Shown piece by piece: positions 13,836-22,051 of a stretch of 37,425 bases of DNA; position 1 is the first letter of the stretch; each line of letters opens with the position of its first letter. The notes below the pieces were generated by a model. The model worked only from the letters and a program-made list of their open reading frames with translations, was not told the origin of the DNA and searched no databases. The DNA lies in IMG/VR virus record IMGVR_UViG_3300028920_000017, positions 1-37,425 of that record; one strand, 5' to 3'. Source of the stretch: a virus. A program made the position numbers and the translations under genes.

Positions 13836-14048
13836 ATGTCACGGATAGCTATTGCGATTTTTGTCATCGTCATGGGCTGTGAAAACGGTACAAGATTCGA
13901 GACGAAAATAAATGACACAGAATATGATGCGGGAGAGGAGGAAACCGATTCAGCATGTTGGGAGATGCACGGTGATGAAAAATACATCGATTATGACTGT
14001 GATGGTTGGGTTGATGAGATAGTAAAGGAGGATACTGATGACAACTGA
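13836..14048 (+). CDS. Small phage lipoprotein with DxDCDGxxDE motif
   Basis: A 70-residue protein with a classic lipoprotein signal: MSR, then a hydrophobic IAIAIFVIVMG stretch and Cys15 (lipobox VMGC). The mature part is acidic and ends with DYDCDGWVDE near residue 53-62, like the Asp-rich DNDCDGxxDE units of putative metal-binding repeats frequent in Myxococcota proteins. AGAGGGG precedes the ATG. An early-expressed lipoprotein in a phage suggests a superinfection-exclusion factor acting at the host envelope, as known for other phage lipoproteins; this is inference. The last 11 bases overlap the exonuclease gene. Confidence 0.65.
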   Translation: MSRIAIAIFVIVMGCENGTRFETKINDTEYDAGEEETDSACWEMHGDEKYIDYDCDGWVDEIVKEDTDDN

Positions 14049-14976
14049 AAAAGACTGGCTAGAAGAAAAACGAACTTGCATCGGTGCATCGGAGTGGGCG
14101 CCTGTGCTGGGACTGGACCCGTTCTCCGGCCCGCTGCATGTCTACGCGAGCAAGGTGCTAGGCTACGCAAACGAAACCACCCCGGCAATGGAGCAGGGAA
14201 AAATTATGGAACGGCCCATCGCTGAGATGTACCAGCGGCGGACTGGGCGCGTGGTCGTGAAAAACGCACAGCTCGATAGGACAATTCAGCGACACCCCGA
14301 CCTCTCCTGGCTCGGTGCGACTCTCGACGGGATGACCGTGTCCAGCGATGCCTACCCCGCTCCGAACGACTATCCCGAGCCGGCCCCGCTAGAAATCAAA
14401 AACACGAGAGGTTTCGTCTATGCCGACGGGCGGTGGAAGTATATCAAGCCCGAGGACTGGGCGAAACGCCCTCCCCGATACAATCGAATCCAGGTGCAAG
14501 CTCAAATGTCGTGCACGACGGCGAAGTGGGGATCGCTCTGCGCATTGATAAACGGCACCGATCTAGTCTGGTCTGACCAAGAGAGAAACAATCGTTTCAT
14601 TCTCGCCGCCATCCCCGTGCTGGAAAGATTCTGGCAGCGGGTTTTGGACAAACGACCACCGTCGGTGAACGACTTGCCGCGCTCCCTCGAAGTAGTGAAA
14701 CGCATGTATCCAGACGAGACGGGCGAGGTTGTAACGTTTAGCGATGAGGCGAACGCAGACGCTCTCAGATGGCTCGAATTGCGAAGCGAGTGCTCTGCTA
14801 TGGAGAAGGAAAAGAAAGCGCTGGAGGCTAAATTGCGCTTCGCTATGGCGGATAACACGTTCGCAAAATTGTCCAATGGGACATATCTTTCTCTAAAAAA
14901 ATCGTATAGAAAAGGATACACGAAAGTGGTGGAGCCGTCCGAATATCGAACGCTGCGACCATGTAAAAAGATCTAA
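14038..14976 (+). CDS. YqaJ-type viral exonuclease (lambda-exo-like recombination nuclease)
   Basis: The 312-residue protein has all marks of YqaJ/lambda exonuclease: IGASE near 15-19, GKIMERPIAE near 54-63, LGATLDG near 92-98 with the metal-binding Asp, LEIKN near 118-122 (Glu and Lys of the PD-(D/E)XK site) and QVQAQM near 152-157. It degrades one strand of dsDNA ends to give single-stranded tails for the RecT-type annealer encoded at 15899. The start has AAAGGAGG upstream. The C-terminal third (from about 245) is helical and Lys-rich, possibly the contact to RecT. Together they form a phage recombination system. Confidence 0.88.
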   Translation: MTTEKDWLEEKRTCIGASEWAPVLGLDPFSGPLHVYASKVLGYANETTPAMEQGKIMERPIAEMYQRRTGRVVVKNAQLDRTIQRHPDLSWLGATLDGMTVSSDAYPAPNDYPEPAPLEIKNTRGFVYADGRWKYIKPEDWAKRPPRYNRIQVQAQMSCTTAKWGSLCALINGTDLVWSDQERNNRFILAAIPVLERFWQRVLDKRPPSVNDLPRSLEVVKRMYPDETGEVVTFSDEANADALRWLELRSECSAMEKEKKALEAKLRFAMADNTFAKLSNGTYLSLKKSYRKGYTKVVEPSEYRTLRPCKKI

Positions 14977-14991
14977 GCAAAAGGGGACACT

Positions 14992-15186
14992 ATGACAGAG
15001 CCAGTGGAACTAAAGCCGGGCTGGTATCGCGTCAAACATCGCGACTATGTTCTGTTTCGAGAGAAGCGAAAGGGCGACGCACATTTTTACAATCAACGCG
15101 GATACAAACAGTTTTATGTGTACGAATATGAAATACTGGACAGAGTGTTTTTTATCTCAGTCCAGAAAGGGGTCAACTATGTCTAG
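14992..15186 (+). CDS. Small aromatic hypothetical protein (64 aa)
   Basis: The protein is rich in Tyr, Phe and Lys, with beta-strand character and an N-terminal LKPGWYRVKHRDYVLFREK stretch. AGGGGA lies before the ATG. No family recognised. The last eight bases overlap the next start. Confidence 0.52.
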   Translation: MTEPVELKPGWYRVKHRDYVLFREKRKGDAHFYNQRGYKQFYVYEYEILDRVFFISVQKGVNYV

Positions 15187-15550
15187 TGAAAAGCCTTCCA
15201 ATTTTAAGATGTTTGACGACAACAGAGAAGTAAAAAATTTCGACATAAGTTATGATTATTGCAAAGAGGGATTGTGTAATGTTCATTATATGGAATACAG
15301 TAAAAGCGAACACTATGGCAGTTTTTCTTTTGATGTTTCAGAGCTAAGAAATAAAACCTTTTCTTTAGGATATACGATGTTCATCAGGACAAACAGAAAT
15401 GAGCCTGACGAGCTTTTTGAAAAAGGCGGTGGGCCATATTTTTCCGATTATCAAGAACTAGATTTAAATGAAGCAAAGCATCTTGTGACTATTTTGGCTA
15501 GATGGATAAAAGAACACGAGGATTATTTGGAAGAAAGTAGCGAACAATGA
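15179..15550 (+). CDS. Hypothetical protein (123 aa), AT-rich gene
   Basis: Start at 15179 (MSSEKPS), where AAAGGGG lies seven bases upstream. The acidic and aromatic protein has no recognised motif. Its gene is clearly more AT-rich than those around it, together with the next gene, which hints at later acquisition. Linked to the next gene by ATGA. Confidence 0.5.
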   Translation: MSSEKPSNFKMFDDNREVKNFDISYDYCKEGLCNVHYMEYSKSEHYGSFSFDVSELRNKTFSLGYTMFIRTNRNEPDELFEKGGGPYFSDYQELDLNEAKHLVTILARWIKEHEDYLEESSEQ

Positions 15551-15906
15551 TCATAAGTGAATTAATAAAAATATTGGAAAGAGCCGAGGATGACAATGGC
15601 GATCTTGAGGTTTGGTTCTCTATCGAAGATGAGAACGGCACCTTTCTTCAATCTCAATTTTGGGAGCATGATACTAGCTGGGGTAAGCTGTTTGCATGGT
15701 CATCGATGGACATAAAAGTAAAAGGTGACAAGTTGATATTTTGTCAATATCCACCTTTTAAAAATCAAGAAAAACCGATACAACCAGAACCGGGTTCTTT
15801 GATTTACGATGAAAGAAATCGGGCTGTTCAGAGGCATGTTGAGAGTTTTTATAGTGATGCAACAGCTATTCACAAAACATTCAGCAAAGGGGAAAACAAT
15901 GAGTGA
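15547..15906 (+). CDS. Hypothetical protein (119 aa), AT-rich gene
   Basis: Starts by ATGA overlap. The N-terminal ISELIKILERAEDDNGDLEV followed by a strand is the pattern of small phage proteins that begin with a helix and a D-GD--V turn; their role is not known. The rest is beta-rich and ends with a Lys/Asn-rich tail. AT-rich like its upstream neighbour. Overlaps the RecT start by eight bases. Confidence 0.52.
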   Translation: MIISELIKILERAEDDNGDLEVWFSIEDENGTFLQSQFWEHDTSWGKLFAWSSMDIKVKGDKLIFCQYPPFKNQEKPIQPEPGSLIYDERNRAVQRHVESFYSDATAIHKTFSKGENNE

Positions 15907-16573
15907 AGACAAGTTAGCAAAAATCGAAAGTCGTTCCATCTATAACGACATAGGAACATTTGAGACAGCGCAGCGAATGGCAAAAGCACTGAGTGCATCG
16001 GATTTCGTGCCCGACCGATTCCGGGGCAATATCCCGAATACTCTCATCGCGATTGACATCGCACTGAGTTTCGGCAACTGGAGAAACCCGCCGAAAGTTC
16101 TCGCCGTTATGCAGAATCTTTATGTAGTTCACGGCAAGCCTGGGTTCGAGGCGAAATTCGTTATCGGGCTCGTAAATACTTGTGGCAAATTTGGTGCAAT
16201 GGAATGGGAGTTCATCGGGGAAAAGGGCTCGACCAATTACGGTGCTTATGCAGTCGTGAAGGAATTGAAGACGGGGAAGGTGCTTAAGGGTTCGACAATA
16301 GATATGGAAATGGCAGCAAAAGAAGGCTGGCTTTTTAAGAAGGACAAGAAGGGGAACGACATCACCACTAAGTGGCAATCGATGCCAGAGCAAATGCTCA
16401 AATATCGCTCGGCCAGCTTCTGGGTTCGCACCCATGCCCCGGAACTACTTCTCGGAATGCACACAGCCGATGAACTCGAGGACGTCGAGGAAGTTGTCAC
16501 CGCAGAGGTTCTGGGCGATACTAGGGACGACCTGGAGGTGATCGCTGACAAGCTCGAAGACAACGAATTTTAA
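15899..16573 (+). CDS. recT: RecT-family single-strand annealing protein
   Basis: The 224-residue protein is preceded by AAAGGGG. FETAQRMAKALSASDFVP near 20-37, PNTLIAIDIALSFG near 46-59, a KVLAVMQNLYVVHGKPGFEAKF stretch near 66-87 and a PEQMLKYRSASFWVRTHAPE stretch near 160-180 are typical of RecT/RedB-like annealing proteins. It coats single strands made by the YqaJ exonuclease and anneals them to homologous DNA, probably at replication forks. The acidic C-terminal tail (many Glu and Asp) is usual. The three small genes between exonuclease and RecT are transcribed with them. Confidence 0.85.
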   Translation: MSEDKLAKIESRSIYNDIGTFETAQRMAKALSASDFVPDRFRGNIPNTLIAIDIALSFGNWRNPPKVLAVMQNLYVVHGKPGFEAKFVIGLVNTCGKFGAMEWEFIGEKGSTNYGAYAVVKELKTGKVLKGSTIDMEMAAKEGWLFKKDKKGNDITTKWQSMPEQMLKYRSASFWVRTHAPELLLGMHTADELEDVEEVVTAEVLGDTRDDLEVIADKLEDNEF

Positions 16574-16606
16574 TTCACACCACGTTCCATCACAAAAAGT
16601 AAGATC

Positions 16607-17290
16607 ATGAATCCATATTATGAACACGCAGGGATAACAATATACCATGGAGATTGCCTGGATGTATTGCCGCAATTGGAACCCGTGGACCTTGTTTTGA
16701 CCGATCCACCATATGGAATGAATAAGTTCAAACATGATATTGAGGTTTGGCATTTTTTAAAGCTTATAAACAGCAAAAAAGATTGTTCTCTATATATGTT
16801 TTGTGGGGATAATTCATACATGGAAGCACGAAGACAAACTGAAATCCTTTTTGATTTTCACAGAACAATAATATGGGAAAAAGAAAATGTATATGGTGGC
16901 GGCGATTATTTGCTTGCACATGAATATATTTTATACGCAAAAAAAGGAGATCCAGTATTTAATAATATCGGCCGAGTTGCAACAAGCGCAGCACTTAAGA
17001 ATATCGGAAAATCGGTGGCCAAGGAAAAGAGTGTTTGGAAAACAAGGGGGTTCAATAATACGTGCAGTGAGTATGTTGGCCACCCAACACAAAAGCCACT
17101 GAAGATAATTCGCAGAATAATCGAAAACTCAAGTTTAGAAAATTATTCAATACTTGACCCCTTTATTGGCTCAGGCACAACACTAGTTGCTGCAAAGGAG
17201 TTAGGCCGCAAGGCAATCGGTATTGAAATCGAGGAGAAATATTGCGAGATAGCTGCTAAGCGGCTTAGCCAGGAGGTTCTACCATTGTGA
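16607..17290 (+). CDS. DNA adenine-N6/cytosine-N4 methyltransferase, beta class
   Basis: The 227-residue protein has the methyltransferase motifs in beta order: TDPPYG near 32-37 (catalytic motif IV) first, and DPFIGSGTT near 183-191 (SAM-binding motif I) near the end, followed by GIEIEEKYCEIAAKRL. GHPTQKP near 157 is typical too. It transfers a methyl group to A-N6 or C-N4 in DNA. No matching restriction gene is near, so it is a solitary methyltransferase, probably protecting phage DNA. The gene is markedly AT-rich compared with RecT before and the nuclease after, suggesting recent transfer. Its stop overlaps the next start (GTGA). Confidence 0.88.
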   Translation: MNPYYEHAGITIYHGDCLDVLPQLEPVDLVLTDPPYGMNKFKHDIEVWHFLKLINSKKDCSLYMFCGDNSYMEARRQTEILFDFHRTIIWEKENVYGGGDYLLAHEYILYAKKGDPVFNNIGRVATSAALKNIGKSVAKEKSVWKTRGFNNTCSEYVGHPTQKPLKIIRRIIENSSLENYSILDPFIGSGTTLVAAKELGRKAIGIEIEEKYCEIAAKRLSQEVLPL

Positions 17291-17733
17291 CTGGAATCCC
17301 ACGTTCTAAACCCCGCCTGATTGAATCCAAATTACAATCCGACATCGTTCAAGACGTACGTTCTTTGTACCTCCGCTGGCCATGCGTGACCTGGCTCCAC
17401 GCAGTTCCGAACGGTGGCTCCAGACATTATCTGGAGGCCGTTAGGCTCAAGCGGGAGGGCGTCAAGCCAGGCATAGCTGATCTCTTTCTCCCCGCACCTG
17501 CTTTTGACGCAGACGGTCACATCAGGTATTGTGGACTGTATCTGGAGGTGAAAACGGCAAAGGGGAGATTGTCGACTCCACAAAAGGCCTTTCGAGACTA
17601 TTGTGAGAAATCGCATTATAAATATGTAGTGGTCAGAACTCGGCGCGAGGGGTTCCTTGCCGTCGTCGAATACCTCGGAGGGCAACATGGGGAAAAGAGA
17701 ACGACAAGTCAAAATCTTCCTGAACATCGGTAG
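17287..17733 (+). CDS. VRR-NUC domain nuclease
   Basis: The 148-residue protein is a stand-alone VRR-NUC enzyme. HAVPNGGSR near 38-46, an RLKREGVKPGIADLFLP element near 53-69 with the metal-binding Asp, a LYLEVKTAKGRLS element near 84-96 with the E-x-K pair, and PQKAF near 98 match this PD-(D/E)XK family. Members cut structured or branched DNA and often sit in phage replication modules as resolvase-like enzymes. The GTG start overlaps the methyltransferase stop. The basic C-terminus overlaps the next gene by 47 bases. Confidence 0.85.
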   Translation: MTGIPRSKPRLIESKLQSDIVQDVRSLYLRWPCVTWLHAVPNGGSRHYLEAVRLKREGVKPGIADLFLPAPAFDADGHIRYCGLYLEVKTAKGRLSTPQKAFRDYCEKSHYKYVVVRTRREGFLAVVEYLGGQHGEKRTTSQNLPEHR

Positions 17734-17893: not shown

Positions 17894-18485
17894 CAACTTC
17901 GGTGAAGAGGCAATCGCCTCGGTAGCTCGGGTGGATTTCCTCAAGGGGCTCGAGGCGATCGGCTGGCTTTTGAAAAAGCAGCTTATCTTCCATCATAAAG
18001 GGTCGTACCACATCACGACCGTGGGAGTCGAGTTCCTAGAGCGCGTCGGTCTGTTCTCCAGGCGCCCCCAGAACCCGAGTAAGTGGAAGGACGAAGCTCT
18101 CACTGGGGTCAGGGAAAAGACCAGCCAGGCGAGCGGACACGTGGTCTCGGAGCAGAGCAAAATCGACCGCGCGGTGTTGTCCACCAGCACGATGGACGCA
18201 GACGAAGGCATCCGACCGGATAAAGTTCTCGCGGAAATCCAGAACCTCGAGCGGTGCCGCAGCTCTGTCTGCCGGCAACTCGGAATCGACTCCGACGAAT
18301 ATAGATCTCTGCTCAAAGAGGGACGTCTCCGCATCTGCCAAAACGGGCACCCACACATCGGGGTTTTTGACCGGAACGGTCCAAATCGCTGGAAGTCTAT
18401 CTGCCGGCGATGTAGAAAAGAGAAAAGGAAAAAATCTCATGGACGACAAACTCAAGAAGACAGTCGAAATCCCAACCCGTGTTAG
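17844..18485 (+). CDS. Winged-helix plus zinc-ribbon protein, possible late regulator
   Basis: The protein has 213 residues from the ATG at 17844, seven bases after GGAGG. The first 70 residues read as a winged helix (SVARVDFLKGLEAIGWLL, then a wing with HKGSYHITTVGVEFLERVGL). After a charged linker comes a helix (VLAEIQNLERCRSSVCRQLG) and a C-terminal element with CQNGHPHIGVFD and CRRCRKEKRKK, likely a zinc ribbon with a basic tail. The domain mix suggests a transcription factor. As the second-last early gene it could switch on the late region starting at 19.4 kb. A small terminase is an alternative. Confidence 0.55.
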   Translation: MDHRIQVLMTIKRFDSDNFGEEAIASVARVDFLKGLEAIGWLLKKQLIFHHKGSYHITTVGVEFLERVGLFSRRPQNPSKWKDEALTGVREKTSQASGHVVSEQSKIDRAVLSTSTMDADEGIRPDKVLAEIQNLERCRSSVCRQLGIDSDEYRSLLKEGRLRICQNGHPHIGVFDRNGPNRWKSICRRCRKEKRKKSHGRQTQEDSRNPNPC

Positions 18486-18819
18486 CCAGCAACTCCACGA
18501 AACCAAAGTCCAGTATGAAAGTATTATCTCCGATCTCAAGGCCGAGGTGACTCGCCTCAACCAGGAGATTTCTGCTTTGCGCGACAAGACAGCCAACCAG
18601 CTCTCGATGAACTGGGCAAAAACAGACGAGGTCGAAGGCGATTTCGCGGACGTCTTTCAGTCGATGATAATGGAGCACGAAAAGAAACTCGATGACACTC
18701 TGGACGAACTCCAAAAGATGTGCGTGCAAGCAATCGACACATCCACGAAATTCATTCTCCGACTTCTAGTCATGAAAAAAGACCGCTCCAAGCTTCTCAA
18801 ACCTATGACAAAGGGTTAA
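18439..18819 (+). CDS. Coiled-coil protein, last rightward early gene (126 aa)
   Basis: The start at 18439 has AAGG ten bases upstream. A coiled coil is evident around residues 17-50 (heptad-like Leu/Ile/Val with Glu and Lys: ESIISDLKAEVTRLNQEISALR), then a helical acidic part and a basic tail (MKKDRSKLLKPMTKG). No enzymatic motif. A small terminase subunit (oligomeric, coiled coil) or a regulator are possibilities, neither shown. The stop lies eight bases before the first tRNA-like element. Confidence 0.52.
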   Translation: MDDKLKKTVEIPTRVSQQLHETKVQYESIISDLKAEVTRLNQEISALRDKTANQLSMNWAKTDEVEGDFADVFQSMIMEHEKKLDDTLDELQKMCVQAIDTSTKFILRLLVMKKDRSKLLKPMTKG

Positions 18820-18827
18820 GATGCAAT

Positions 18828-18932
18828 CGGGCGGCGCTGGTGCGCGGAACCATGAACAAAACCAGGTAAACCACACGACGTCCATATTTTTCGTTTTGAC
18901 AAAAAACCCCGGTTCGATTCCGGGTCGCCCGA
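18828..18932 (+). ncRNA. tRNA-like element 1 (acceptor and T arm present, anticodon arm abnormal)
   Basis: A seven-pair acceptor stem (cgggcgg at 18828-18834 with tcgcccg at 18925-18931, one G-T pair) and a perfect T arm (cccgg, ttcgatt, ccggg at 18908-18924) are clear. The whole is 105 bases, longer than any normal tRNA. Inside, a tggt/acca hairpin could serve as D arm. The sequences caaaac (18857-18862) and gttttg (18893-18898) can pair as an anticodon-like stem, but enclose a loop of 30 instead of seven bases. It is either a tRNA interrupted or enlarged in the anticodon loop, a decayed tRNA, or a tRNA-like structure with another role. Confidence 0.5.
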
Positions 18933-18935
18933 CTG

Positions 18936-19039
18936 GGAACGGTGGTCGGCACAGAAAGGATAACAACAGAGCAGTCCCCAGAAAACTCGGTTGTATTCAT
19001 TGCCCGTAAATCCAGGTTCGACTCCTGGTCGTTCCCCCA
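18936..19039 (+). ncRNA. tRNA-like element 2 with encoded CCA end and enlarged anticodon loop
   Basis: It starts three bases after element 1. The acceptor stem ggaacgg (18936-18942) pairs with tcgttcc (19029-19035), followed by C and an encoded CCA (19037-19039). The T arm (ccagg, ttcgact, cctgg) is perfect. T at position 8, a three-pair D stem (gtc/gat at 18945-18947 and 18959-18961) and a five-pair anticodon stem acaac/gttgt (18963-18967 with 18990-18994) are placed as in a tRNA. The loop, however, has 22 bases and the variable region 17. No anticodon can be assigned. An insertion in the anticodon loop or pseudogenisation would explain it. Confidence 0.5.
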
Positions 19040-19122
19040 TGATGGATGAGATTCAATTCGTGCAACTCTGCTTTGTCGTCGTTCTGGCAATTTCCCTGCT
19101 GATGCTGGCAAACAGAAGATAG
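19039..19122 (+). CDS. Possible 27-residue membrane peptide
   Basis: A short frame from the ATG that shares the last base of tRNA-like element 2 encodes 27 residues with one hydrophobic span (VQLCFVVVLAISLLMLA) and a basic end (NRR). No ribosome-binding site is visible upstream, so translation is doubtful. It may be only part of the structured non-coding region. Confidence 0.25.
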   Translation: MMDEIQFVQLCFVVVLAISLLMLANRR

Positions 19123-19173
19123 CGCCCTCGCCTCCGGGGGAGGAAAAGCGAGAGCGCGGGTCCGTGATGGACC
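19122..19173. other. Two strong hairpins in the gene-free stretch 19123-19474
   Basis: Hairpin one spans 19122-19157: gcgccctcgc pairs with gcgagagcgc (one mismatch), with an inner ctcc/ggag stem. Hairpin two spans 19159-19173: ggtcc/ggacc around gtgat. Neither is followed by a T-run, so they are not typical intrinsic terminators. They could end the rightward early transcript with help of a protein, protect the 3' end of the tRNA-like transcript, or be part of a structured RNA. The rest of the 350-base gap up to 19350 is AT-richer and I see no gene in it. Confidence 0.45.
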
Positions 19174-19350
19174 GCGCATTCTAGCACGTTAATTTGCAGA
19201 AAAAAACCTGAATCAGGAACCCTTGGCTGTTTCAGAATAAAATAAGCTACCGCAATGATTCCGCGCATTTACGAATAACTAGAGGCCTGAAAGCATATAA
19301 CACTTAAATGACTCGCGCAAAGAAATCCTCCATTTTCAGGAGAATCTTTC

Positions 19351-19379
19351 TTGCTATGGGCCCGAAATCACCCTATATT
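19351..19379 (+). promoter_or_regulatory. Candidate sigma70-type promoter for the late/packaging operon
   Basis: TTGCTA at 19351-19356 (four of six consensus bases) and TATATT at 19374-19379 (five of six) are separated by exactly 17 bases, just upstream of the first late-region gene. A transcript would begin near 19386 and run directly into the intrinsic terminator at 19420-19460. This is the best-scoring promoter I found by eye in the window. Confidence 0.5.
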
Positions 19380-19419
19380 CAGCTTGGATAGTTGACTCAA
19401 AAAACTGTTTTTCGCCTCG

Positions 19420-19460
19420 CCCTCCCGGCTCCCGTTCCCGATGTCGGGAGGGTATTTTTT
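19420..19460 (+). terminator. Intrinsic terminator in the leader of the late operon
   Basis: ccctcccg (19420-19427) pairs perfectly with cgggaggg (19445-19452) and is followed by tattttttc. This is a strong rho-independent terminator. It could end transcripts coming from the early operon, and it also lies between the promoter candidate at 19351-19379 and the first late gene at 19475, so late expression may need antitermination or a promoter inside the leader. Confidence 0.72.
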
Positions 19461-19474
19461 CAGGGGGTACTCTT

Positions 19475-19975
19475 GTGACGGATGGAATTCCTGTAAAATG
19501 TGAACACTCTGATCTCATCGACCCGAAGACACTCAATCCACACCCCAAAAACCCCAATAAGCACCCGTCATCACAAATAAAATTGCTCGCTAAGTCCATC
19601 GGGCGATTCGGCTGGAGACACCCCATCGTCGTCTCAAGACGATCTGGTCTCATCGTCGCCGGCCATGCCAGGCGCCAGGCCGCAATTGAACTCAAGTGCA
19701 AAGCACCGATAGATATCCAGGATTTCGACTCCGAAGCCGATGAGGTCGCCGTCTTGCTCGCAGACAACATTCTCCCCGAGCTGTCCGAGATGGACCATCA
19801 GCTCTTCATGCATGGAAAAGAACTCCTGGAATTGCAGGATATTCCGCTCGATATGATTGGTATTCCTGTCCTCGATGTTCCAGAATTCAACGAAGAATCA
19901 GAGGACAGTCAACCAGAACTCGACAAGAAAAAAGAGGTAACTTGCCCCAATTGTGATCATGTCTTCGAACCTTAG
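19475..19975 (+). CDS. ParB-like nuclease/ParB-fold domain protein
   Basis: The 166-residue protein starts at a GTG, seven bases after AGGGGG. LNPHPKNPNKHPSSQIKLLAKSI near 20-42, GWRHPIVVSR near 46-55 and a LIVAGHARRQAAIEL element near 59-73 are the ParB/Srx-like core (GHxR motif). LLADNILPELSEMD follows near 94-107. The C-terminus ends with a zinc knuckle (CPNCDHVF). Phage proteins of this type often neighbour DNA modification genes and may bind or nick DNA, or act as a CTP/ATP-dependent clamp. Here it directly precedes, and overlaps by 17 bases, a Mom-like modification gene, so joint action is likely. Confidence 0.78.
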   Translation: MTDGIPVKCEHSDLIDPKTLNPHPKNPNKHPSSQIKLLAKSIGRFGWRHPIVVSRRSGLIVAGHARRQAAIELKCKAPIDIQDFDSEADEVAVLLADNILPELSEMDHQLFMHGKELLELQDIPLDMIGIPVLDVPEFNEESEDSQPELDKKKEVTCPNCDHVFEP

Positions 19976-20534
19976 ACTTGGCTGGTGCTCCCATGAGGCA
20001 GCGAAATACGCTGTGATGAACTGGCATTACTCCCGCGCGATGCCCGCCGGCAAGCTTGTGAAAATCGGAGTCTGGGAAAATGACAGATTCGTGGGCGCAG
20101 TCATTTTCAGCAGAGGGGCAAACAACAATATTGGGAAGCCCTTCGGACTCAAACAAACCGAAATCTGCGAACTGGTCCGAGTCGCTCTGTCGAAGCATGA
20201 AACGCCAGTGACCAGAATCGTGGCCATCGCCATTAAGATGCTTCGCAAGAAGGCGCCAGGGATACAAATGTTAATCTCATATGCCGACCCGAGACAAGGG
20301 CACAAAGGTGTCATCTATCAGGCTGGCAATTGGGTTTATCTGGGCAAAAACAAGTCATGGAAAGGTTCTCATTACATCGTTAACGGAAAGAAAATGCACG
20401 GTCGATCCGTTAGAGCAAAGTGGGGTAGCGAAAAAAACATCCCCTATGAATGGGAATACGATCTGGACGGTGAAAAACATAAGTACATCTATCCTTTGAG
20501 CAAGGAAATGAAGGAAAAGTTTGCGCGTTCCTAG
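19959..20534 (+). CDS. mom: Mom-like DNA adenine modification protein (GNAT fold)
   Basis: The protein has 191 residues. NWHYSRAMPAGKLVKIGVWE near 22-41, FVGAVIFSRGANNNIGKPFG near 44-63, ELVRVALSKHETPVTRIVA near 70-88 and LISYADPRQGHKGVIYQAGN near 105-124 correspond to the conserved blocks of the phage Mu Mom family: the His-Ser-Pro-Gly block, the GA---G-PFGL block, the RVAL--H block and the DP--GH-G-IYQA block. Mom converts DNA adenine to N6-(carboxamidomethyl) adenine and so blocks many restriction enzymes. The ATG at 19959 has no strong ribosome site, consistent with coupling to the ParB-like gene. The TAG stop is also positions 8-10 of tRNA-like element 3. Confidence 0.85.
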   Translation: MSSNLRLGWCSHEAAKYAVMNWHYSRAMPAGKLVKIGVWENDRFVGAVIFSRGANNNIGKPFGLKQTEICELVRVALSKHETPVTRIVAIAIKMLRKKAPGIQMLISYADPRQGHKGVIYQAGNWVYLGKNKSWKGSHYIVNGKKMHGRSVRAKWGSEKNIPYEWEYDLDGEKHKYIYPLSKEMKEKFARS

Positions 20535-20597
20535 TGTATTGGTCGCACGCGTGGTACACCAGCTGCGAAGTGGCGGTTCGACTCCGACCGGGACGCT
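20525..20597 (+). ncRNA. tRNA-like element 3 (normal length, unpaired anticodon arm)
   Basis: It is 73 bases, exactly tRNA length. The acceptor gcgttcc (20525-20531) pairs with gggacgc (20590-20596). T8-A9 and a four-pair D arm with a ggtc loop (gtgt, attggtc, gcac at 20534-20548) are canonical. The T arm (ggcgg, ttcgact) has one bulged A. The anticodon stem would be cgtgg against gctgc and cannot pair, and position 33 is not T. A shorter hairpin (tgg-taca-cca flanked by gc/gc) can form instead. So it is a tRNA-like element or decayed tRNA. It begins inside the Mom-like gene, using its stop codon as positions 8-10. Confidence 0.5.
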
Positions 20598-20630
20598 CTA
20601 AGGTAGTGGATTTCAACGCACGAATTCGAA

Positions 20631-20939
20631 ATGGATAACTCCCAAGCAAGGCGGAAACGCCTAACAGAACTCGAAGACCTCGTGGCAAGAAGAGACAAGC
20701 TCTCCGACCAGGAGTATCTTGACCTCCTACATGAGATTCGAAAGAACTACACGGTCAAGCTCGCGATGCTTTCAGTCAGACTGGACAATCGGGAGACAGG
20801 CGGGACTGTTAATGTAATTGATAAAGTCCACTGGCTCATCGACAACATGGAAACGAAGCACATAGAGAAACAGGATGGCGACGACCATGTTGTTCACGTC
20901 CACTTTACACCTTATGAGCCCGATGATAAGAAGGGCTGA
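20631..20939 (+). CDS. Hypothetical helical protein (102 aa) near the terminase gene
   Basis: The protein is helical with a charged N-terminal half (SQARRKRLTELEDLVARRDKLS), a second helical region and an acidic, His-rich end (DGDDHVVHVHFTPYEPDDKKG). No ribosome site is obvious. It lies in the stretch between the modification genes and the large terminase where a small terminase subunit might be expected, but no helix-turn-helix is evident, so this role is only a possibility. Confidence 0.48.
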   Translation: MDNSQARRKRLTELEDLVARRDKLSDQEYLDLLHEIRKNYTVKLAMLSVRLDNRETGGTVNVIDKVHWLIDNMETKHIEKQDGDDHVVHVHFTPYEPDDKKG

Positions 20940-21006
20940 TGCAAGAGATTAAGTCCCTCGCCGCTGAACGATGCCGGGCGGTGGGGGCAACCGTTTCACG
21001 TGGAAC

Positions 21007-21822
21007 ATGAAAATTGTGGAAGATAGCGAGACTGGTTTCGCCCGACTCGACACGATCCCCGAAGAGGCGACCGTCAATTCGTATTATCGCGATCTCTACT
21101 TCGCAGACAAACCAGAACTAGCACGAGACAGGGCATGGAGAACAGTCCGCGCCTATCGATTGTTCCGCCTCCTGAATAGAGCTTGCCCAGATGGACAGTC
21201 GTTTCTCGACATCGGGGCGGGAGATGGGCTCACCTGCAAACTGGCGCACGAGCTCTATGATGTGACAGTGGGCGTCGAGCCGAATGCCAAGCTCTGCGCG
21301 GAGGCCAAGTTCCCACTCGTCGAATCGACGTGGTGTGAACAGACAGCGCGACAGCTCCCAACCTTCTCACACATCGACCTCCAGAACGTTCTGGAACACG
21401 TTGTCGACCCGGTCGGTATGCTGCGACTCGCCGCTTCCAAGCTGAACCCAAACGGCGCCCTGGCGATCACAGTGCCGAGAGATGGAAGCATCCTCCAGGC
21501 GGAGGCGAGCAAGGTCATCGGACGGCCAGAATATTGGGTTCACCCGACCCATCTGAATTACTTCACCTCTGCGACATTGCAGAAAGTGGTTAGTGGTGTT
21601 GGGCTCGAAGTCGTATGGGAGACAACCAATTTCGCGATGGAATTGTTTCTCATCGCGGGCATAAATTACGTGAAGAGTCCCAAGAAAGGGAAACTCTGTC
21701 ACGACATCAGATGCAAGTTCGAGATGAATCTTTCCCCGGATGTCCTGGAAAAATTCTACGCCGCAATGGCGCGGGTGGGATTCGGCAGAGAGATTATTCT
21801 CATCGCAATCAAGCCATCATAG
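21007..21822 (+). CDS. Class I SAM-dependent methyltransferase
   Basis: The protein has 271 residues from the ATG at 21007; an upstream ATG at 20971 has no ribosome site. FLDIGAGDGLTCKLA near 63-77 is the SAM-binding motif I, followed by an acidic end of the second strand (VTVGVEPN), a HIDLQNVLEHVVDP element near 121-134 (motif IV region with the NVLEH signature of the Methyltransf_23 group) and LNPNGALAITVP near 145. Substrate unknown: a modified nucleobase, lipid, sugar or protein are all possible. Its place after the Mom-like gene allows a part in DNA modification; an origin as cargo is also possible. The stop TAG overlaps the tRNA-Thr gene. Confidence 0.72.
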   Translation: MKIVEDSETGFARLDTIPEEATVNSYYRDLYFADKPELARDRAWRTVRAYRLFRLLNRACPDGQSFLDIGAGDGLTCKLAHELYDVTVGVEPNAKLCAEAKFPLVESTWCEQTARQLPTFSHIDLQNVLEHVVDPVGMLRLAASKLNPNGALAITVPRDGSILQAEASKVIGRPEYWVHPTHLNYFTSATLQKVVSGVGLEVVWETTNFAMELFLIAGINYVKSPKKGKLCHDIRCKFEMNLSPDVLEKFYAAMARVGFGREIILIAIKPS

Positions 21823-21885
21823 CTCAACAGGCAGAGCAGCGGTTTTGTAAACCGCAGGTTCTCGGTTCGACTCCGAGTGTTGGCT
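21813..21885 (+). tRNA. tRNA-Thr (anticodon TGT)
   Basis: A standard 73-base cloverleaf: acceptor gccatca with tgttggc (one T-T mismatch), D arm gctc/gagc with aacaggca loop, anticodon stem gcggt/accgc with loop tttgtaa and anticodon TGT at 21846-21848, five-base variable loop, and T arm ctcgg, ttcgact, ccgag. Discriminator T, and no encoded CCA. It reads ACA and by wobble ACN-type codons. The TAG stop of the methyltransferase gene is used as T8-A9-G10. Confidence 0.9.
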
Positions 21886-22051
21886 CAAGCCGAGGATATT
21901 CGTGGGGCTTGTCCGACGAGGGTCCTCGCACCCTTTTATCCCGCGCCACCTTCTGTTCATCGCAGGCAACCGGCAGAGGGTGGCCGGGTCCCTATTTCGG
22001 GGTGGGTCTGAACTGAACTGGCGAGAACGGTTTGGGCCGCCCCACCACTCC

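Follow-up and report, generated by a model that had tools for sequence, protein, structure and literature searches.

A tRNA-Gly-like RNA embedded in the 3' ends of phage mom genes may supply an amino acid for DNA modification

A tRNA-Gly-like RNA was found embedded in the 3' ends of phage mom genes, which suggests that the phages carrying it may modify their DNA with an amino acid delivered by a tRNA. One such RNA is present in the window, i.e. the whole stretch of viral DNA analyzed here (37,425 nucleotides, IMG/VR record IMGVR_UViG_3300028920_000017). An earlier note on this DNA covered two tandem tRNA-like elements, E1 and E2 (Table 1), and the nearby mom gene, together with the tRNA-Gly-like RNA belonging to it, had gone unseen. 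This third element was missed by ARAGORN and Rfam. We provisionally regard the large tRNA-Gly family to which it belongs as previously unrecognised; no description of a mom-linked tRNA was found in the open-access library searched.

Table 1. Features around the mom gene of the window.
Feature	Position	Strand	Remarks
Upstream ORF	18439..18819	+	Weak matches, likely coiled-coil; stop 8 nt before E1
E1	18828..18932	+	tRNA-like, Pro-type end, no CCA, 30-nt loop replacing the anticodon loop
E2	18935..19039	+	tRNA-like, His-type end, encoded CCA, 22-nt loop replacing the anticodon loop
ParB-like gene	19475..19975	+	phrog_498, phrog_620; partner of mom in many phages
mom	19953..20534	+	GNAT-fold DNA-adenine modification enzyme; phrog_1384, E 7e-59
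mom-embedded tRNA-Gly-like RNA	20525..20597	+	Begins in the last mom codons
tRNA-Thr(UGU)	21813..21886	+	Ordinary; ARAGORN, Rfam 64.3 bits

By sequence and by fold, the window protein belongs to the Mom family. Its AlphaFold2 model reached a pLDDT of 92.6, the best Foldseek match was phage Mu Mom (PDB 8bv8), and phmmer against 8bv8 gave 1e-10. The embedded element reads GCGTTCC TA GTGTATTGGTCGCAC ... GGCGG TTCGACT CCGACC GGGACGC T, and the UAG stop codon of mom provides its residues U8-A9-G10. It is a member of the mom-embedded tRNA-Gly family, being matched at 54.8 bits (E 4e-10) by covariance model R2, which had been built without the window. Its anticodon stem is weak (G-U rich in the model alignment) and CCA is not encoded. 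E1 and E2 were matched by neither R1 nor R2 and were rejected as members of this family. Among the other window genes, no second aminoacyl transferase was found, and a promoter and terminator scan of 18300-20700 gave no signals above shuffles. Elsewhere in the window, consecutive genes for a RecE-like exonuclease, a RecT-like protein, an N6/N4 DNA methylase and a VRR-NUC protein occupy 14038-17733, and the tRNA-Thr, which lies immediately ahead of the terminase, overlaps a Methyltransf_23 ORF (20971-21822) at its 3' end.

In several loci, a tRNA-Gly was seen directly 3' of mom. A structural rule was defined as a GC... acceptor of 7 pairs plus U73, lying no more than 160 nt past the mom match. 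An element obeying this rule followed mom in 68 of 85 loci, and of 3827 segments drawn at random from these loci 99 (2.6%) contained one; with a looser rule and three elements placed by annotation, the number of loci rose to 72. The elements fall into a long class (70-75 nt) and a short class (64-68 nt). When a covariance model built from 29 long-class members was run over 864 kb of loci, the matches lay at mom, the sole exception down to E 0.03 being the tRNA-Thr of the window. In 46 whole records, of which 34 contain no tRNA above the Rfam cut-off, the hits away from mom were limited to two ordinary tRNAs. Covariation was strong: the long class scored 0.636 versus 0.155 after shuffling, and for the short class the acceptor and T stems gave 0.505 versus 0.144. 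One locus (L082) showed two equal-score model matches 711 nt apart (1312-1378 and 2023-2089), which may reflect duplication of a unit or an error of assembly.

The bacterial glycine identity set comprises U73, G1-C72, C2-G71, G3-C70, C35 and C36 (PMC9976931, Table 1). The mom elements keep this set: G1-C72, C2-G71 and U73 were present in all 67 distinct elements and G3-C70 in 66, the first two pairs and U73 being partly preset by the search rule, whereas the model hits and the free variation of acceptor pairs 4-7 were not. Furthermore, a pentaloop NNCCN (GACCA, TTCCA, TTCCG and others) closed by at least five pairs, which played no part in the search rule and supplies the CC of the set, was observed in 54/67 elements versus 7/1340 shuffles. 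CCA follows immediately in 46 of 65 elements. The TTCRA T-loop is retained in just 9 of 65, a G.A mismatch lies within a 6-nt T stem in 56 of 65, and D-arm features are mostly lost; most of the elements score under the Rfam tRNA cut-off, with a few above it.

The mom frame spans the entire element, with its stop codon beyond, in 51 of 69 loci; the stop lies inside the element in 17 and before it in one. Since the same RNA starts in each of the three possible phases of the mom frame, conservation acts at the RNA level, and the three phases together with the covarying stems rule out a protein-level cause. That this mom-linked tRNA-Gly family is real is, in our judgment, close to certain.

In a tree of Mom proteins, the element was confined to one clade, in which parB often precedes mom, and few losses were seen inside this clade, e.g. 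in phiEf11-type phages. The Mom proteins of Mu-like phages, ICP1, A511, Salmonella, Proteus, Corynebacterium and EFA1 fall outside it. The element was absent at the checked mom loci of Mu-like phages, ICP1, A511, Salmonella, Proteus, Paenibacillus, Vibrio, Corynebacterium and Enterococcus EFA1, which indicates that not every Mom enzyme requires a tRNA of its own. At three loci with a phiEf11-type mom and no tRNA-Gly (L007, L032, L089), a possible RNA hairpin with the loop CG[CG]TAA directly follows the stop codon, and a second possible hairpin downstream holds the palindrome CCACGCGTGG.

Mu Mom has been described to transfer a glycyl-type group to adenine N6, with an acyl-CoA such as glycyl-CoA assumed as donor (PMC7824862). 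From the sequence features described above, it is probable that in phages of the element clade a dedicated glycyl-tRNA is the glycine donor for Mom. The host would trim the mom-embedded RNA and finish its CCA, host GlyRS would charge it with glycine, and Mom, a GNAT enzyme, would move the glycyl group from the charged RNA onto the N6 of a DNA adenine. The lost D/T-loop contacts, the 5-nt anticodon loop and the T stem longer by 1 nt would keep the RNA away from EF-Tu and the ribosome. As a chemical speculation, N6-glycyl adenine could then be converted by rearrangement into the glycinamide form reported for Mu. Excision of the RNA would remove the end of the mom frame of that transcript and may in this way couple the output of enzyme and RNA. 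Such a mechanism would explain why the elements keep glycine identity and often carry CCA, why ribosomal features are lost, and why the RNA is linked exclusively to mom.

In another reading, which we consider unlikely, the element would not be a donor; it would either serve the mom mRNA as a structure for regulation or stability, or act as a decoy for GNAT toxins that acetylate Gly-tRNA. The overlap with the mom ORF in most loci is consistent with the former; as for the latter, TacT reads U73 and G71 (PMC9976931), both present in the mom elements. However, an invariant glycine identity set including the CC of the anticodon loop, an encoded CCA, and a linkage exclusive to a glycine-type modification enzyme argue against both and in favour of the glycyl donor.

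Upstream of parB, E1 and E2 were examined at the level of their arms. The acceptor stem of E1 consists of CGGGCGG (18828-18834) and TCGCCCG (18925-18931), 7 bp, followed by A73 (18932); its perfect T arm is CCCGG-TTCGATT-CCGGG (18908-18924), a D-like hairpin GCGC-TGGT-GCGC adjoins the acceptor, and the stem CAAAAC (18857-18862)/GTTTTG (18893-18898) encloses the large loop. In E2, G-1 (18935) precedes a 7-bp acceptor stem, GGAACGG (18936-18942)/TCGTTCC (19029-19035), which is followed by C73 (19036) and CCA (19037-19039); the T arm CCAGG-TTCGACT-CCTGG (19012-19028) is likewise perfect, and the stem ACAAC (18963-18967)/GTTGT (18990-18994) closes the loop. The coordinates thus bear out the earlier description of seven-pair acceptors, perfect T arms and loops of 30 and 22 bases in place of seven. 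For E2, the CCA, T8 and the five-pair anticodon-like stem also held; the D stem claimed for it amounts to GTC/GAT including one G-U. Both T-loops conform to TTCGANT, and a 13-layer acceptor/T stack is formed in both elements if the -1:73 pair is counted.

A 7-bp acceptor combined with a 5-bp T stem and a TTCRA loop occurred at two sites in the window, E1 and E2, and at none in 60 dinucleotide-preserving shuffles of it. The folding energy of the whole elements was unremarkable (z about -1.3 to -1.4), so the signal resides in the two arms and not in the middle. All 24 acceptor/T pairs are intact, and the D and anticodon domains are unrecognisable. With regard to the end bases, G72 (in a C1-G72 pair) and A73 of E1 are those listed for bacterial tRNA-Pro, and G-1 and C73 of E2 those listed for tRNA-His (PMC9976931); having no anticodon loop, E1 lacks the G35 G36 context of proline, and E2 lacks the GUG loop. 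The 3' half of E1 also matched tRNA-Pro genes of Streptomyces phages (84% over 37 nt, E 0.5).

ARAGORN made no call for E1 or E2, and neither was called by Rfam at the gathering score, RF00005 included; hence no ordinary tRNA fold was found for either element by these programs. The canonical 7-nt anticodon loop with U33 is absent, and E1 and E2 are real tRNA-like elements unable to read codons. They appear to be tRNA-derived and to retain just the end by which synthetases and processing enzymes recognise a tRNA, Pro-like in E1 and His-like in E2. The suggestion in the earlier note of tRNA mimics fits in a broad sense, the acceptor/T halves being intact in elements with no U33 and no decodable loop. 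Three other assignments were rejected: tRNA-Sec, for reasons given below with that family; tmRNA, as G3-U70 is absent and a tag reading frame has no room (inspection); and, for E1, an attB/tRNA end, since an exact search of the genome collection with its 25-nt 3' half found nothing.

Relatives of E1 and E2 were scarce. In the collections, IMGVR_UViG_3300028883_000163 was the sole contig sharing them, with complete identity over 12 kb; a 23-mer of E2 was found in this contig only, and searches via the neighbouring genes returned nothing else. The window terminase had no relative in reference phages or genomes, and no similar elements were seen near other mom genes in about 85 loci. No divergent relative, in which the middles might be compared or selection might show, was present in these collections. 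Tentatively, E1 and E2 may be functional non-decoding tRNA mimics under selection on the acceptor/T half, a reading that we favour over the others but to which we give somewhat less than an even chance. That a small phage genome has three tRNA-like RNAs, all of them non-canonical, in 1.8 kb around mom is suggestive of a shared use, without being evidence for it.

A serious competitor, itself of distinctly less than even probability, treats E1 and E2 as pseudogenes: a tRNA-Pro and a tRNA-His left over from an earlier tRNA array of the phage, decaying or recombined and functionless now. Phage tRNA genes turn over fast, the middles of E1 and E2 match nothing, E1 has no CCA and the elements were not found elsewhere. 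Against this stands the contrast between 24 of 24 intact acceptor/T pairs and unrecognisable D and anticodon domains, which uniform decay would rarely leave, as well as the retention of Pro-type and His-type end bases. The same end bases would be unnecessary if E1 and E2, placed as they are between the upstream ORF and a small ORF that follows, served as RNase P/RNase Z punctuation or to protect 3' ends, a role we find improbable. These enzymes need no more of a substrate than the acceptor/T stack, and the spacing is tight: E1 starts 8 nt past a stop codon, E1 and E2 are 2-3 nt apart, and the CCA of E2 overlaps the ATG of that ORF (MMDEIQFVQLCFVVVLAISLLMLANRR, membrane-like, 19039-19122). It is a little more doubtful still that they are decoys for host defence enzymes which cleave or modify tRNAs and would recognise the acceptor/T half; the half-tRNA structure and the phage setting agree with this, but the anticodon target is gone and no specific defence partner is known.

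The earlier suggestion of small insertions in the anticodon loop, i.e. functional tRNAs with removable inserts, fared worst. Every segment of 12-45 nt was deleted from E1 and E2 and ARAGORN was rerun, with shuffled middles as controls: calls were obtained for 1 of 1513 E1 variants (1 of 25 controls with calls) and for 17 of 1377 E2 variants (2 of 25). E2 was called in variants with about 15 nt removed, but the variants retaining the ACAAC/GTTGT stem restored a 7-nt loop lacking U33. Because E1 did no better than shuffled controls and the restored E2 loops lack U33, excision yields no canonical anticodon loop and the intron reading is unsupported; Rfam showed no self-splicing intron signature either, and we hold this explanation to be highly improbable.

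Returning to mom, we find it fairly likely that DNA base modification in these phages depends on an aminoacyl-tRNA, with a dedicated, translation-deficient tRNA-Gly residing inside the mom 3' end and Mom putting its glycine on adenine; E1 and E2 would then be additional amino acid carriers or mimics that do not decode. The explanation as a whole, a mom-linked glycyl-tRNA feeding Mom together with E1 and E2 as non-decoding RNAs, is favoured with modest confidence. A glycine tRNA specific to mom would indicate the donor of Mom, given merely as an assumed acyl-CoA in PMC7824862, and the question is directly testable in isolates that have the element, among them the Arthrobacter phages Zartrosa and Sicarius2 and the Salinibacter phage B2_17. 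The family further offers a case of a tRNA-like gene that sits within a protein-coding gene and does so in three different phases, and it adds phage tRNAs of a kind mostly overlooked by standard annotation. To our knowledge, no tRNA-dependent DNA modification has been known before; the mom system, if the proposal is true, would be the first.

Compared with known systems, E1 and E2 resemble tRNA-Sec (RF01852) in that it was their best sub-threshold Rfam match (21.5 and 18.0 bits) and in the 13-layer acceptor-T stack, possible if -1 pairs with 73; they differ from it by the absence of a UCA anticodon and of a 6-bp D stem, and by scores below half of the threshold of 47. The window Mom is related to phage Mu Mom by the Foldseek and phmmer matches given above, whereas the Mu-like locus L092 has no element and the window Mom belongs to a separate, often ParB-linked clade. 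The long-class mom elements share the cloverleaf of ordinary phage tRNA-Gly, and a few pass the Rfam tRNA cut-off; unlike ordinary tRNA-Gly, mom elements are tied to mom, their anticodon loop has 5 nt, their T stem is longer by 1 nt and has a conserved G.A mismatch, and the T-loop consensus is lost. The closest parallel in logic is provided by the non-proteinogenic tRNA-Gly isoacceptors of S. aureus that supply FemXAB (PMC4052509). There too glycine identity is kept and a non-ribosomal glycyl transferase is fed, as is proposed for the mom RNA, and translation is escaped through weakened GG18-19 and T-arm features. The S. aureus tRNAs are chromosomal, full-size and serve cell-wall bridges, whereas the mom RNAs are phage-encoded, often shorter and embedded in the gene of the enzyme, and their proposed target is DNA.
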